Below are positions 3,964 through 10,129 of a stretch of 41,757 bases of DNA, one piece after another. The stretch lies in IMG/VR virus record IMGVR_UViG_3300044644_000340, positions 1 through 41,757 of that record. One strand, given 5' to 3'. A program made the position numbers and the translations under genes. The notes beneath the pieces were generated by a model. That model searched no databases, was not told where the DNA came from, and was given only the letters and a program-made list of their open reading frames with translations. Numbering within the stretch: the first letter of the stretch is position 1; each line of letters begins with the position of its first letter. This DNA is from a virus.

Positions 3964-5322
3964 TTATCCCATATTTTCCACATACTTTTTGTGTAATAAT
4001 TTTTTCTCCAAACCTTCACCATTTTTGCTATCTTTTGTAGAAGCCATACCATCAATAGATGTTGCTGCGAACACATCCATAATACCATGAAACGTATCAA
4101 TCTTTGCTGGAAAGGTCATTCCATCAGGTCCAAATCGATTTTTAACGATATGAATACGACCTGTGTTTGATAACTTATCCTTTGTTTTTCTACTAACACT
4201 CATAATGAAATCAGCAGTTTGAACTTTCTTGTACGAATCTCCAACCGAATCGGCTTGAATAACTTCGTGGTCAATTGCTGCTCTATTAGTCTGTGTTGCA
4301 GTCCATACTGGTATCTGTGCTTCACCACTCAATCCTCGCAACTCCTCATAGATTCCACCCAACTCCGCATACAATCCATCTCTATTACTATTGCCAGATT
4401 TTAATAAATCCGCATAATCAATAATAATTAATTTAGGATTGAACCCAACTTGTCTTACTTTTTCAATATGAGCTGCAATTGTTTTTGCAGATGCGAATTG
4501 TGGTGGATAATATTTAATACGAACTCTACCTGGAATCTTTTTAATTTTGCGGATAATTTCATCTTTCCTATCCTTATGTTCGGATGTTTGGATACCAGTA
4601 AGAATTGTAGTATATCTCTGTCCTACATAACTTTCTGATAACTCCAAAGTATAATGTAATACATCAATACCCTTTTCTAATGCAGAACACGCTATTTTAG
4701 ATAAGAACCAACTTTTACCAATACCGGAGGGAGCCATTACAACACCCAATTCACCAGGCCCCAAACCACCATCCATTAGTTCATCAACAACATCCCATCC
4801 AGTTGGACACGAATCTCGTTTAACATCTTCCATAATGGATTCAAAGTTTTCAATGTAATCTAATCCTAAATCAGATTCTACACCCACCTTTGATGCTGCC
4901 ATCATCGTATCTATAATCTTATCGTAGTTTCCTGCTTTGAGTAAATCTACCGATTTTAGAAGGGCATCTTTTACTTTTTGGTTTTTACAAAAAGTTAAAT
5001 ATTCTTTTTTAACATAAGGTAAATCTTCGGAACCAACTTGTAAATAAACATTTTTAAGTTGGTCAACTACGGTTTGTTTTAAACCTTTATCATCTATAGA
5101 ACTTACTTTGATTTTGAACACCTCCATTGTAGGAGTTGCTCTAAATTCATTAAAGTAATCTAATAGAGAATTTATAATCCATTGATTTGCCTGTGATTCA
5201 AAGAATGTAGGTTTAGTGATTTCGTTTACCTGTTCAAGAAACTTAACATCTGTTATAAGAGAAGCAACAACTTTAGATTGATACGATTGTCCATATTTTA
5301 CCAATGTATCTACTGCTTCCAT
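3964..5322 (-). CDS. Replicative DNA helicase, DnaB / T4 gp41-like
   Basis: 452 residues with an N-terminal helical domain (about 1-150) and a RecA-fold motor domain. Walker A is APSGIGKS (197-204) and Walker B is LIIIDYADLL (Asp302). TATQTNRAA is the H3-like sensor segment, and a SVSRKTKDK segment is the likely arginine-finger region. This is the 5'-3' hexameric helicase type that unwinds DNA at the phage fork. A matching primase is not in the window. The start ATG overlaps the stop of the preceding 70-residue gene as TAATG, indicating coupled translation. The family call is firm. T4-type versus bacterial DnaB-type cannot be settled here. Confidence 0.93.
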   Translation of the reverse strand: MEAVDTLVKYGQSYQSKVVASLITDVKFLEQVNEITKPTFFESQANQWIINSLLDYFNEFRATPTMEVFKIKVSSIDDKGLKQTVVDQLKNVYLQVGSEDLPYVKKEYLTFCKNQKVKDALLKSVDLLKAGNYDKIIDTMMAASKVGVESDLGLDYIENFESIMEDVKRDSCPTGWDVVDELMDGGLGPGELGVVMAPSGIGKSWFLSKIACSALEKGIDVLHYTLELSESYVGQRYTTILTGIQTSEHKDRKDEIIRKIKKIPGRVRIKYYPPQFASAKTIAAHIEKVRQVGFNPKLIIIDYADLLKSGNSNRDGLYAELGGIYEELRGLSGEAQIPVWTATQTNRAAIDHEVIQADSVGDSYKKVQTADFIMSVSRKTKDKLSNTGRIHIVKNRFGPDGMTFPAKIDTFHGIMDVFAATSIDGMASTKDSKNGEGLEKKLLHKKYVENMG

Positions 5323-5534
5323 TATTTTTTACGTTTCTTTCTTGCTAATTTTTTTTCTTCAATCGATAATTCCAACACCGTTTCCGATACTTCAACTACT
5401 TTTTGTACTGGTTTACGAAGTGCTTTCCACTCCGATTTGGGTACGAAAACCCAACCATATTGAAATACTTTTAAATCTGCTTCTTCTTCTTTTACTCTGC
5501 GGATTTCTCCATCTTTACTTTTGATACACTTCAT
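5322..5534 (-). CDS. Small basic protein of unknown function upstream of the helicase
   Basis: 70 residues. The central YGWVFVPKSEWKALRK segment looks like a small beta/helix module, and the C-terminus is strongly basic (EEKKLARKKRKK). Its stop codon overlaps the helicase ATG (TAATG), and it lies 23 bases downstream of GroES, so it is clearly part of the replication operon. I do not recognise the family. The basic tail and location would fit a nucleic-acid-binding or helicase-accessory role, but that is inference only. Confidence 0.7.
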   Translation of the reverse strand: MKCIKSKDGEIRRVKEEEADLKVFQYGWVFVPKSEWKALRKPVQKVVEVSETVLELSIEEKKLARKKRKK

Positions 5535-6926: not shown

Positions 6927-8016
6927 TTCCTTCGTCCGTTGTTATTTCAACTTCATCCGATGATGCTGCTTTGTATAATAAAATTGTTGCTTCACAAATC
7001 CTACGATAGATTTGGTCTTTAAGTTCTTCGTTTTCTAATAATTTAGCGAAGTCCTTTGATTGAAATTTCATAATTTCACCTGTATCAATATCAGTGTATT
7101 CATACCATGCTCCACCTTGCTTTAGAAGTTTAGCATCTTTCATAACTGCTAACCAACCTCCGAAATTATCAATACCTCTATCAAAGAAGATATCGAAATC
7201 CGCGTGTCTCAAAGGAGGACCCATTCGGTTTTTAATAACCTGTGTTCTAACTTTGATACCTACGATTCTATCACCTTGTTTCAATTGCCCCATATTCTTC
7301 AATCTCAATCTAACAGATGCGTGGAATGCAAGTGCTTTACCACCCGATGTTGTCCACGGGTCTCCGAACATTGCGTTCATCTTCTGTCTTAATTGATTTG
7401 TGAATACTAATGCAATAGATTGTCTACCAATCATATTGGTAATCTTTCTCATTGCTTTGGAGATAATAATTGCCTTATCGGTTGCGTAACCATCTTTACC
7501 ATAATCGGCTTCTAACTCCTTATGTGTTGATGCTGCTGCTACTGAATCCACAACGATTGTTACCAATCTATCCTTATCACCTTTACGAACTTGCTCAATA
7601 ATTGTTTCACATGCTTCAAAAATACCTTCAACAGTATCAACTGAAACATATAGGAGTTTTGAGATATCTACTCCAATTGCTTCTAAAAATTCTCTACTAA
7701 CTGCGGTTTCGGTATCAATCAGAACTGCAACACCACCTTTACGTTGTGTTTCAGCTAATAAATGGGCAGAGAGCAGAGATTTTCCACTCTGCTCTAAACC
7801 CGTTATTTCTGTTATTCTACCAACTGGCAATCCACCATAAGGTCTGTTTGAGATTGCAACATCCAACATAGCGTTTCCGGTAGATACCCAATCCTTTACA
7901 TTGGTAGGAGCATCACCACCCTCATCTGTTAGAAAGTAAGCAATCTTACCATCCTTATTTTGTTTGTTTAGAGAATCGGCAAGTAAACTTGCTAAATCTT
8001 CTTCTCTTTTTGCCAT
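6913..8016 (-). CDS. uvsX: RecA/UvsX-like recombinase
   Basis: 367 residues. Walker A is GLEQSGKS (73-80). The catalytic-Glu strand reads VLIDTETAV, Walker B is LVTIVVDSVAA, and TNQLRQKMNAMFGDPWTTSGGKALAFHASVR spans the loop and L2-type DNA-binding region (compare RecA NQIR and GGxALKFYAS). The acidic C-terminal tail (EVEITTDEGNESD) is typical of RecA. It is expected to do strand exchange for recombination-dependent replication and repair with the gp32-like SSB encoded immediately upstream (12-base gap). The sequence looks closer to bacterial RecA than to T4 UvsX in its L2 region. The symbol reflects role and context. Confidence 0.93.
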   Translation of the reverse strand: MAKREEDLASLLADSLNKQNKDGKIAYFLTDEGGDAPTNVKDWVSTGNAMLDVAISNRPYGGLPVGRITEITGLEQSGKSLLSAHLLAETQRKGGVAVLIDTETAVSREFLEAIGVDISKLLYVSVDTVEGIFEACETIIEQVRKGDKDRLVTIVVDSVAAASTHKELEADYGKDGYATDKAIIISKAMRKITNMIGRQSIALVFTNQLRQKMNAMFGDPWTTSGGKALAFHASVRLRLKNMGQLKQGDRIVGIKVRTQVIKNRMGPPLRHADFDIFFDRGIDNFGGWLAVMKDAKLLKQGGAWYEYTDIDTGEIMKFQSKDFAKLLENEELKDQIYRRICEATILLYKAASSDEVEITTDEGNESD

Positions 8017-8028
8017 TTATAACTAATT

Positions 8029-8889
8029 TTAGTTGTTAAATAAATCATCGAATGCCGATGCTACATCTTCTTTAAGAGGAGATGCTTTTTGTGTAGATGC
8101 CTTTGGTTCTTCATCATCCCAAGGTAACCCACCACTTTCTTGAGTACCACCCATATCAGTAGATACAGTTGATTGTTTAGGTTGAACTTTTGCCGATGCC
8201 AATTCCTCATTAATTGGGTTTCCACTACCATTAGATGGAGCAGATGGGTTTAACCAATTTTCCAATACACCCTTCAATTCATCGTAAGATAATTCAGAAT
8301 ATAGTTCTGTAATCTCTTTTTGTGCGTTCAATAATTCAGTTACTGCCTGTGCGTCATCCAAAATTTTAGATACGGCAGGTTTAACTCTGATTGTAGTTGT
8401 TGGGTATGCTGCATTTGATTCTTCAGCTGATACTACTTCTAATACAATATCACGTCCTGTGTGTGGGTCTGTAATATCACCATAATCAGGGTCAGCAATA
8501 TATCCTAAAATATCTTGATATACTGTTTTACCAAATCCCCAAAATTTAACTCCTTCACTTTCTTTACCTCTTACGATAACTGGTGCGAATGTTCTCAATT
8601 TTGGTTCCATTTTTTTCCCGGCCTTCCAGTCATCAGTGTCTCCTGTACGCTTTAGCTTTTCAGCAAACTCTACGATAGGGTCAGGTCTTCCAAATGAAAT
8701 TGGAGATAGATACGTTTTGTTGTTAATATTGTAGTGAAAATACAATTCAATGAAAGGATTATCCTTATTGAATTTGTAAGGTACTAAACGGATTTGAGAT
8801 TTTCCGTTTGCTGGCTTCCAAATGGAATCAGACTTCTTTGTGTTGTTTTGAAGAGAGCTAAATCTCTTGAGTGCTAATGAAATGTCCAT
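8029..8889 (-). CDS. 32: gp32-like single-stranded DNA-binding protein
   Basis: 286 residues. The core (about 25-190) has the T4 gp32-type arrangement: IWKPANGKSQIRLVPY, an aromatic-rich FIELYFHYNI strand, GRPDPIVEFAEKL, then FWGFGKTVYQDIL. A Pro/Ser/Gln-rich linker follows, ending in an acidic tail (GLPWDDEEP and EDVASAFDDLFNN) like the partner-binding tail of gp32. The protein contains no cysteine, so the zinc-binding subdomain of T4 gp32 is absent. It is encoded directly upstream of the RecA-like gene. It has its own promoter candidate and a structured, repeat-containing leader that suggests autogenous control. Confidence 0.88.
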   Translation of the reverse strand: MDISLALKRFSSLQNNTKKSDSIWKPANGKSQIRLVPYKFNKDNPFIELYFHYNINNKTYLSPISFGRPDPIVEFAEKLKRTGDTDDWKAGKKMEPKLRTFAPVIVRGKESEGVKFWGFGKTVYQDILGYIADPDYGDITDPHTGRDIVLEVVSAEESNAAYPTTTIRVKPAVSKILDDAQAVTELLNAQKEITELYSELSYDELKGVLENWLNPSAPSNGSGNPINEELASAKVQPKQSTVSTDMGGTQESGGLPWDDEEPKASTQKASPLKEDVASAFDDLFNN

Positions 8890-8971
8890 TGCTTTTTAAG
8901 TTTTAAGTGTTAATAAATTGTTTTAAGTTTGAAGGTTTTATCGCGATTTCCTTATATCTAAATATAACCTT
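8890..8971 (-). promoter_or_regulatory. gp32 mRNA leader: hairpin plus ACTTAAAA repeats (candidate autogenous operator)
   Basis: On the sense (minus) strand, the leader contains a perfect 6-bp hairpin, TTATAT-loop-ATATAA (8952-8967). An overlapping AAGGTT/AACCTT helix (8966-8971 with 8932-8937) is an alternative pairing that could form a compound fold. Next to the ATG is an unstructured stretch with three ACTTAAAA copies (complements at 8921-8928, 8901-8908, 8894-8901). T4 gene 32 is known to be autoregulated by a 5' pseudoknot followed by UUAAA-type repeats. The resemblance is in arrangement, and regulation here is inferred. Confidence 0.45.
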
Positions 8972-8982
8972 TTTACTTTTCT

Positions 8983-9011
8983 TGTAACAAATATACAATA
9001 AATTTGTTACA
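8983..9011. repeat. Inverted repeat over the gp32 promoter (operator candidate)
   Basis: TGTAACAAAT (8983-8992) and ATTTGTTACA (9002-9011) are perfect 10-bp inverted arms separated by 9 bases. One arm overlaps the TATATTTG -7 element and the other lies in the promoter spacer. No T-run follows on the minus strand, so it is not a standard terminator for the DUF1599-like gene. A dimeric repressor site is the simplest reading. Confidence 0.5.
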
Positions 9012-9018
9012 TTTCCAA
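8988..9018 (-). promoter_or_regulatory. Bacteroidota-type promoter candidate for the gp32-recA operon
   Basis: The minus strand reads AACTTGG, 19 bases, then TATATTTG (8995-8988). This fits the Bacteroidota -33 TTG/-7 TAnnTTTG pattern, and both elements and the spacing are identical to the polymerase promoter at 13730-13760. It would give a leader of about 90 bases before the gp32 start. Confidence 0.55.
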
Positions 9019-9021
9019 GTT

Positions 9022-9378
9022 TTATTTTGCCCACTTCCCTCTACTCACTAATTGAGAAATTACGGAGTAAACTGCTAGGTCTTGATAGGTATCTTCGATA
9101 GTTTCAGACACTTCATCGGGATGTCCTAATACTACCAATTGCTTTAATCTGTTGATTTTATCGTTCTTTCTGAACCATAGGCCATTCAATGATAATTTAA
9201 CATCTTCTTTAGTTTGAAGTGATGTACCTACTGAAATATTACCCGGTCCGTAGTTTCTTTGTTTTTTACAAAAAGTAGTATACATTTCATCCAGAATATT
9301 TTTAAATTCAAAAGTCATTTCTGGATAAGTTTCTTCACAATATTCGACTGCGGATTGTTCTTTTTTGGTATCTAACAT
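9022..9378 (-). CDS. DUF1599-like (nucleotide modification associated domain 1) protein
   Basis: 118 residues. The pattern FKNILDEMYTTFCKKQRNYG, then GLWFRKNDKINRLKQL, then SETIEDTYQDLAVYSVI matches my recollection of DUF1599 (Nmad1), a helical domain common in phages and named for its association with nucleotide-modification genes. Acidic and basic residues (Glu in DEM, Asp in NDK, Asp in EDTYQDLA) are the conserved ones. The biochemical role is not established. It starts 7 bases inside the preceding gene and lies just before the gp32 promoter. Family call from pattern memory only. Confidence 0.65.
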   Translation of the reverse strand: MLDTKKEQSAVEYCEETYPEMTFEFKNILDEMYTTFCKKQRNYGPGNISVGTSLQTKEDVKLSLNGLWFRKNDKINRLKQLVVLGHPDEVSETIEDTYQDLAVYSVISQLVSRGKWAK

Positions 9379-9698
9379 AACTTATTTTTTAAAAGTTTTT
9401 TATTTATTTTATTTTTTAATTTGATTCCTAAAGCACACATTTCATACTCCTCATATTCTACGAGGGTTTCGATGTTTTCATCTAATAAATTTATGAATTC
9501 TTTACTATCAATTGAAAGTGTAATAACAATCGAATGTTTGATTATTACATGCGCAAAATCAACGCGAGATTTATTGTTTCGAATTCCAAATGAAATTGAA
9601 TCAATAATTGCTTTAGACATTTCCATTCTATAAGTTTGGAAAACATCTACAGGGTCTTGAACGTAAATTTGAATAGGTTTGAATCTATTTCTTTTCAT
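9372..9698 (-). CDS. Conserved-looking hypothetical protein
   Basis: 108 residues, predicted alpha/beta. It has MEMSKAIIDSISFGIRNNKSRVDFAHVI followed by a hydrophobic strand (IVITLSIDSKEFINLLDENIETLVEYEEYEMCALG) and a basic C-terminus. There is no signal peptide or membrane segment. It overlaps the next gene by 7 bases (start-stop coupling) and forms a small-gene group between the 133-residue and DUF1599-like genes. I do not recognise a named family and infer no function. Confidence 0.7.
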   Translation of the reverse strand: MKRNRFKPIQIYVQDPVDVFQTYRMEMSKAIIDSISFGIRNNKSRVDFAHVIIKHSIVITLSIDSKEFINLLDENIETLVEYEEYEMCALGIKLKNKINKKLLKNKLC

Positions 9699-9727
9699 AC
9701 TACTAATATATGAAAAAAAAATCAGAA

Positions 9728-10129
9728 TTACAACTCCTCTGTATTAAAACTTTTAAAAACTTTTGTAGGAATTTTTTTATATCCAATTGAAGATGTTGTA
9801 ATAATACAATTTTTAAATTCATCCCAATCAATCATATACGAACTATCCAATATCCCACCCGTCTTTGATTTAACTACTTCATTGAGTGCGTTGATGGTGT
9901 ATATTGTATTTGACTGTTTTTTTCTATGAACTAAAATTGTTTTCCAATCGGATGGTATTGCAGAAGAACCTTTTTTAACATTGAATGTAATGTATAGTTC
10001 TCCCTCATTTATTTTATTTTCTAATACAAATACGTTTGGGTTTGTAAGTATATACTGATTTAGAACAAATTCTAACGATTTATCTAACTCTTCTTTTATG
10101 GTAAAAAGACATAATAACTGTGTATTCAT
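9728..10129 (-). CDS. Hypothetical protein of a T4-like phage type
   Basis: 133 residues with an alternating alpha/beta pattern: MNTQLLCLFTIKEELDKSLEFVL at the N-terminus, then ELYITFNV, TILVHRKKQSNTIYTINALNEVV, and DWDEFKNCIITT near the end. The HRKK...NTIYTINALN segment is one I associate with uncharacterised small proteins of marine T4-like phages, but no function is known to me. An ATATTTATC variant of the late-type element lies 25 bases upstream of the start. It is not overlapped by its neighbours. Confidence 0.7.
   Translation of the reverse strand: MNTQLLCLFTIKEELDKSLEFVLNQYILTNPNVFVLENKINEGELYITFNVKKGSSAIPSDWKTILVHRKKQSNTIYTINALNEVVKSKTGGILDSSYMIDWDEFKNCIITTSSIGYKKIPTKVFKSFNTEEL

Follow-up and report, generated by a model that had tools for sequence, protein, structure and literature searches.

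The leader of the ssb gene in the window (the whole stretch of 41,757 nucleotides analysed here) is, judged by sequence comparison, a conserved RNA element in related phages. We consider it probable that this leader acts as an autogenous translational operator for the gp32-family single-stranded-DNA-binding protein (SSB), following the scheme of T4 gene 32. Well over a hundred related phages share both a folded element and the UUAAA repeats that accompany it, and these comparative data carry most of what follows.

Results

The SSB gene and its leader

The gene behind the leader encodes a protein of 286 residues that matches Pfam PF08804 (E 2e-15, 57.8 bits at a cut-off of 26.8) and phrog_224 (E 8.5e-14), and its family profile reaches the core of T4 gp32 (1gpc) with E 1.5e-5. 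The predicted fold, with a mean pLDDT of 67.8 and a core mostly at 75-89, has 1gpc as its top Foldseek match (E 7e-9, prob 1.00), its best PDB matches being T4 gp32 and RB69 gp32. By sequence and predicted fold, the SSB of the window is a member of the gp32 family, in agreement with the original prediction. T4 gp32 has a zinc-binding His/Cys site. The window SSB contains no cysteine in its 286 residues, so that this zinc site is missing, and none is conserved across the family alignment; the site is a feature of T4 which the PF08804 model does not demand. The C-terminal FDDLF motif is almost invariant in the family.

All genes in this part of the window lie on the minus strand, ssb being the first of a series that continues with recA/uvsX, a 5'-3' exonuclease, groES, a dnaB-type helicase and nrdB. 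The leader (8890-8971) lies directly 5' of the ssb ATG at 8889, and 132 nt separate this ATG from the upstream gene. The features, including those that rest on the comparisons below, are as follows.

8029-8889, minus strand: gp32-family SSB gene, 286 aa (PF08804, phrog_224, profile and Foldseek matches)
8890-8931, minus strand: unstructured UUAAA-repeat stretch ending at the ATG (UUAAA, G and unpaired statistics against other genes)
8932-8937, minus strand: AACCUU, the 3' strand of the loop pairing S2, with loop AAGG or upstream AAGGUU as partner
8945-8958, minus strand: hairpin S1, in the window only GAU (8958-8956) with AUC (8947-8945) (covariance model match, covariation)
8950-8953, minus strand: AAGG inside the S1 loop, the 5' strand of S2 (clade-specific complementarity to the 3' segment)
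8958-8965, minus strand: AUAUUUAG, a variant of the phage promoter box ATATTTATA (box upstream of S1 in relatives)
8966-8971, minus strand: AAGGUU, upstream copy, pairing with AACCUU (8932-8937) in the nested minimum-energy fold
8988-8995, minus strand: TATATTTG, a Bacteroidota-type -7 box (TAHHTTTG) by sequence and consensus, kept in clade A leaders
9015-9018, minus strand: TTGG, a possible -33 element by its sequence

The elements from which an operator had been predicted are all there: a hairpin with a perfect 6-bp stem, UUAUAU(8967-8962)-UUAG-AUAUAA(8957-8952), the overlapping alternative helices AAGGUU(8971-8966)/AACCUU(8937-8932) and AAGG(8953-8950)/CCUU(8935-8932), and three copies of ACTTAAAA (8928-8921, 8908-8901 and 8901-8894), followed by AGCA and then the ATG. 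Likewise, no Shine-Dalgarno sequence precedes the ssb ATG in the window leader, as had been stated. The leader holds no intrinsic terminator, an Rfam scan of 8000-10000 gave chance matches below threshold only, and a comparison of the leader DNA with known phages returned host-type promoter matches and chance matches only.

Folding of 8887-8985, proposed as a check, gave a structure modestly above chance (z -2.0, 9/200 shuffles), and a scan of the single sequence for pseudoknots with a simple descriptor did no better than dinucleotide shuffles and was therefore dropped as evidence. Hence, the case rests on comparison. The computed minimum fold of the window leader, as in clade A, is nested and runs via AAGGUU/AACCUU, and S1 comprises only 3 bp in the window.

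The leader in related phages

Scans of IMG/VR with four SSB queries yielded about 300 loci with 146 distinct leaders. From the window's clade (clade A), 33 leaders were used to build a covariance model, whose single match in the 41.8-kb window is the ssb leader at 8975-8925 (71.5 bits, E 3.6e-14). In 343 kb around related ssb genes it found 50 matches with E < 1e-6, one per source and all of them ssb leaders. For a second model, built from other clades, all matches with E < 1e-4 were ssb leaders as well. Since sequences used in building a model match it by construction, the informative result is that strong matches occur nowhere else, which indicates that the element belongs to the ssb gene. 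It is positioned about 43-70 nt before the ATG.

The conservation expected of an operator extends over the related leaders but did not show in gp32 leaders further away, for which cyanophages, Flavobacterium immuto, Lysinibacillus and Bacillus phages, Microcystis phage Mel-JY01 and two MAG contigs were inspected; leaders of SSBs of 34-55% identity are without it, and the element hence does not span all gp32 phages. Furthermore, leaders of the L064/L079 type have no hairpin, and L054 lacks the loop AGG. Two gp32-type SSB genes (L310 and L311) lie on MAG contigs labelled Euryarchaeota and Nitrosopelagicus, which are probably binned phage contigs.

Covariation in homologous leaders, another check proposed, supports S1 in clade A and in clades B-D. 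In clades B-D the stem takes such different forms as GCGAGU/ACUCGU, GGUGU/ACACC, AAGUGU/ACACUU and GGAUGU/GCAUCU. When six S1 pairs and a two-pair loop contact were scored in 19 distinct leaders of these clades, 95.4% of cells were paired, 20 cells were doubly changed (4.9 in shuffles) and covariation amounted to 0.486, compared with 0.177 after shuffling and at most 0.114 with the partners slid. The S1 stems of clade A are AU-rich (GAUAU/AUAUC, CUAUAU/AUAUAG, GUAAUA/UAUUGC), and their covariation (0.214, against 0.136 shuffled and at most 0.113 slid) is weaker than in the other clades but real; as the MAFFT alignment used for clade A is not structure-aware, the S1 counts there are conservative.

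The loop of S1 is complementary to the sequence that directly follows the hairpin on its 3' side, in letters that vary by clade: AGG(U)/(A)CCU, GAG/CUC (L051), AGAUU/AAUCU, UGGUU/AACCA, ACAG(U)/(A)CUGU, AGUUU/AAACU and AG/CU. When loops and 3' segments were compared between own and swapped clades, only 6 of 5040 clade permutations were equal or better. On an SSB tree obtained by a quick method, the S2 types require about 12 changes, the minimum possible being 8, with complementarity mostly kept, and AGG/CC turns into AAG/CU between near tree neighbours such as L110 and L269. Because the types were labelled manually by their 3' segments, a few of which (AAACUU) look like the generic repeats, the count of independent events is an approximation. 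S2 is short, 2-5 bp, and only 2 bp (GG/CC) in clades B and C. Altogether, S1 with its clade-specific loop-to-3' pairing is a sequence pattern that fits a small H-type pseudoknot with a short S2, and we infer that S1 and S2 form simultaneously.

Of the helices visible in the window alone, the perfect 6-bp hairpin named in the original prediction did not hold up as a conserved structure: 14 of 33 close relatives retain only 3-5 of its six pairs, with uncompensated losses, and its 5' arm overlaps the promoter-like box. Equally rejected was the outer helix AAGGUU/AACCUU. Folding of clade A leaders yields it as the minimum, but it has no compensatory support, and its pairing G is lost in L007, L018, L037 and L056, leaders that keep the loop AGG. 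As a separate observation, the segment 8940-8947 (AUCGCGAU) is palindromic in relatives too despite changes of its letters (GUAGCUAC, AUAGCUAU, AUUGCAAU); S1 may have an alternative partner in the second half of this segment, which may instead be a dimer contact.

The repeat tract

In the window, the folded element ends at -43 and is followed by an open UUAAA tract of 42 nt and the ATG, the last 45 nt of the leader containing three UUAAA and a single G. The 45 nt that precede the ATG contain 2.75 UUAAA on average in ssb leaders; the value is 0.49 for 108 other genes at these loci and 0.58 for composition-matched shuffles. Their G content is 3.3% versus 10.8% for the other genes, and their mean predicted unpaired probability 0.64 versus 0.45. 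Since the window's count of three is equalled within the window by one other gene (5322-5534), the strength of the repeat signal lies in the family.

Promoters around the leader

In Flavobacterium johnsoniae, the -7 box (TAHHTTTG) is separated from the transcription start by 4-5 nt (PMC6847099). With this spacing, the box TATATTTG places the expected start at about 8982-8983, which gives a leader mRNA of about 94 nt. A perfect 10-bp palindrome, TGTAACAAAT/ATTTGTTACA (8983-9011), lies over the TATATTTG box and thus overlaps the promoter; it was seen in full form in the window and the identical relative L001, is probably absent from the mRNA, and is possibly a repressor site, or chance. The promoter style and the starts without Shine-Dalgarno sequences suggest that the host is apparently a Bacteroidota bacterium of the kind that does without them; some marine relatives have AAGGAG-like sequences ahead of the ATG.

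The box ATATTTATA is present in 11 sense copies in the window (minus strand, 12452 to 40994), each 13-72 nt before a gene, and in one antisense copy, compared with 1.5 in shuffles. Read in sense orientation, it includes the T4 late box TATAAATA as its reverse complement, and it is apparently the phage's own (late) promoter. As a copy or variant stands immediately 5' of S1 in most ssb leaders, ssb probably has two promoters, one early and one specific to the phage. Gene 32 of T4 is likewise transcribed from several promoters. Five leaders of the marine clade C (L122, L124, L126, L150 and L155) have a terminator-like hairpin, e.g. AGACCC..GGGTTTTTT, between the early promoter and ATATTTATA, possibly an attenuator. 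In many leaders of clade D (L085, L286 and relatives), complementary letters stand on either side of the box, CGGTGT upstream and ACACCG downstream.

Discussion

With this in place, a mechanism can be proposed. The nucleation site would be a small folded RNA, the hairpin S1 with its loop paired to the adjacent 3' segment. Surplus SSB, free of single-stranded DNA, would bind this folded element first and then polymerise cooperatively over the open UUAAA repeats, past the start codon, whereupon bound SSB would block access of the ribosome and translation of ssb would fall. That SSB is the ligand, and that its binding represses translation, we infer from the gp32 precedent: in T4, a 5' pseudoknot of ~28 nt serves gp32 for nucleation, and from there the protein extends across the initiation site along more than 40 nt of UUAAA/UAAA RNA (PMC535899, PMC3014915), and repression of gene 32 requires both the pseudoknot and the repeat stretch (PMC535899). 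Together with this precedent, membership of the SSB in the gp32 family, the restriction of the element to ssb, the covariation of S1, the clade-wise complementarity of S2 and the UUAAA spacer argue for the operator. Several findings weaken it, namely the 3-bp S1 and the nested minimum in the window, the pseudoknot scan that did not exceed shuffles, the 2-bp S2 of clades B and C, the deviating leaders L054 and L064/L079, the lack of cysteines in the SSB and the SSBs of 34-55% identity without the element; moreover, the UUAAA repeats would also suit plain A-rich initiation in Bacteroidota (PMC6847099).

This last point leads to another account, unlikely in our view, in which a stabilising 5' hairpin and an A-rich translation enhancer merely make ssb mRNA long-lived and highly translated in hosts that do without Shine-Dalgarno sequences, with no feedback by SSB. 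In Bacteroidota, A residues at -3, -6 and -12/-13 and a lack of structure promote initiation (PMC6847099), and the hairpin would lie near the expected 5' end of the transcript from either promoter. An enhancer of this kind, however, leaves unexplained why UUAAA exceeds the expectation from base composition (2.75 vs 0.58 in shuffles) and why the layout is missing at neighbouring genes of the same phages, and a plain stabilising hairpin has no need of a loop-to-3' complementarity that is kept through the changes between clades.

A translational operator with a different ligand, such as a phage repressor resembling RegA, an RNA-binding protein of the host or an enzyme that processes transcripts, would account for the same RNA features, and none of the computed results singles out a ligand. 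T4 RegA binds unstructured AU-rich start sites, and selection with RB69 RegA led to UAA triplets (a study cited in PMC3014915). We give this possibility little credence, because the element is restricted to ssb, whereas RegA acts on many genes, and because the known precedent for the layout is the gp32 family.

The SSB-bound operator could also be a two-state device sorted by transcript class. AACCUU can pair alternatively with the upstream AAGGUU or with the identical letters in the hairpin loop, and as the upstream AAGGUU lies 5' of the phage box, it is present solely in transcripts that start at the early promoter. Such early mRNA would then be nested and translated without hindrance, and for mRNA started at the phage promoter the loop-to-3' fold would be the sole option, with repression by SSB; we regard this elaboration as a long shot. 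Finally, conservation of promoter architecture at the DNA level, i.e. the early box TATATTTG followed by the phage box ATATTTATA and its initially transcribed region, fits the genome-wide promoter-like behaviour of ATATTTATA (11 sense copies, all just before genes), its place directly upstream of S1 in most leaders and the overlap of the box with the 5' arm of the hairpin first predicted, but is very improbable, as S1 and S2 are located on the 3' side of the box and show the covariation of paired RNA, and other ATATTTATA promoters in the window have no downstream element.

The T4-type gene 32 pseudoknot has been described as possibly the sole viral pseudoknot in translational autoregulation, and a study of diverse T4 relatives has been called for, RB49 being without the pseudoknot (PMC3014915). 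A covarying element of T4-like layout in a large family of uncultured phages, apparently on Bacteroidota that do without Shine-Dalgarno sequences, would mean that the scheme either predates the T-even phages by far or had more than one origin. Well over 100 natural leader variants are also at hand to dissect by what means a non-specific SSB picks out the mRNA that encodes it.

Comparison with known operators

The T4/T2 gene 32 operator shares with the present leaders a gp32-family gene, a folded element ending ~40 nt before the ATG and a G-poor UUAAA/UAAA stretch that reaches the start codon (T4 leader read directly; PMC535899); counted in the same way, the T4 leader has three UUAAA and four UAAA. 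It differs in that its leader shows no sequence match to the present leaders, and in that the window leader is without a Shine-Dalgarno sequence and the window SSB without zinc ligands. The loop of the T4/T2 pseudoknot (GGU..) pairs with a segment 5' of the hairpin, whereas the loop partner lies 3' of it here. The predicted likeness to T4 stands as to a covarying folded element and an open UUAAA tract, and not as to strand order or sequence. Given these differences and the distant leaders that lack the element, we describe the leader as one that would work like that of T4 rather than as its proven homologue.

Among other known systems, the gene 32 leader of RB49, which precedes a T4-type gp32 gene, is reportedly without a pseudoknot (PMC535899, PMC3014915), so that the scheme is not universal. 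The operators of gene 43 (DNA polymerase) in T4 and RB69 consist of a hairpin alone, with no pseudoknot evident, and serve a different protein, yet there too a replication protein represses its own mRNA via a hairpin near the start (PMC3014915). The leader region of RB69 gene 32 is ~70% identical to that of T4 (PMC535899), a similarity that the present leaders do not show; it is alike in being a diverged operator of similar structure, for which autogenous repression has been shown by experiment (PMC535899).
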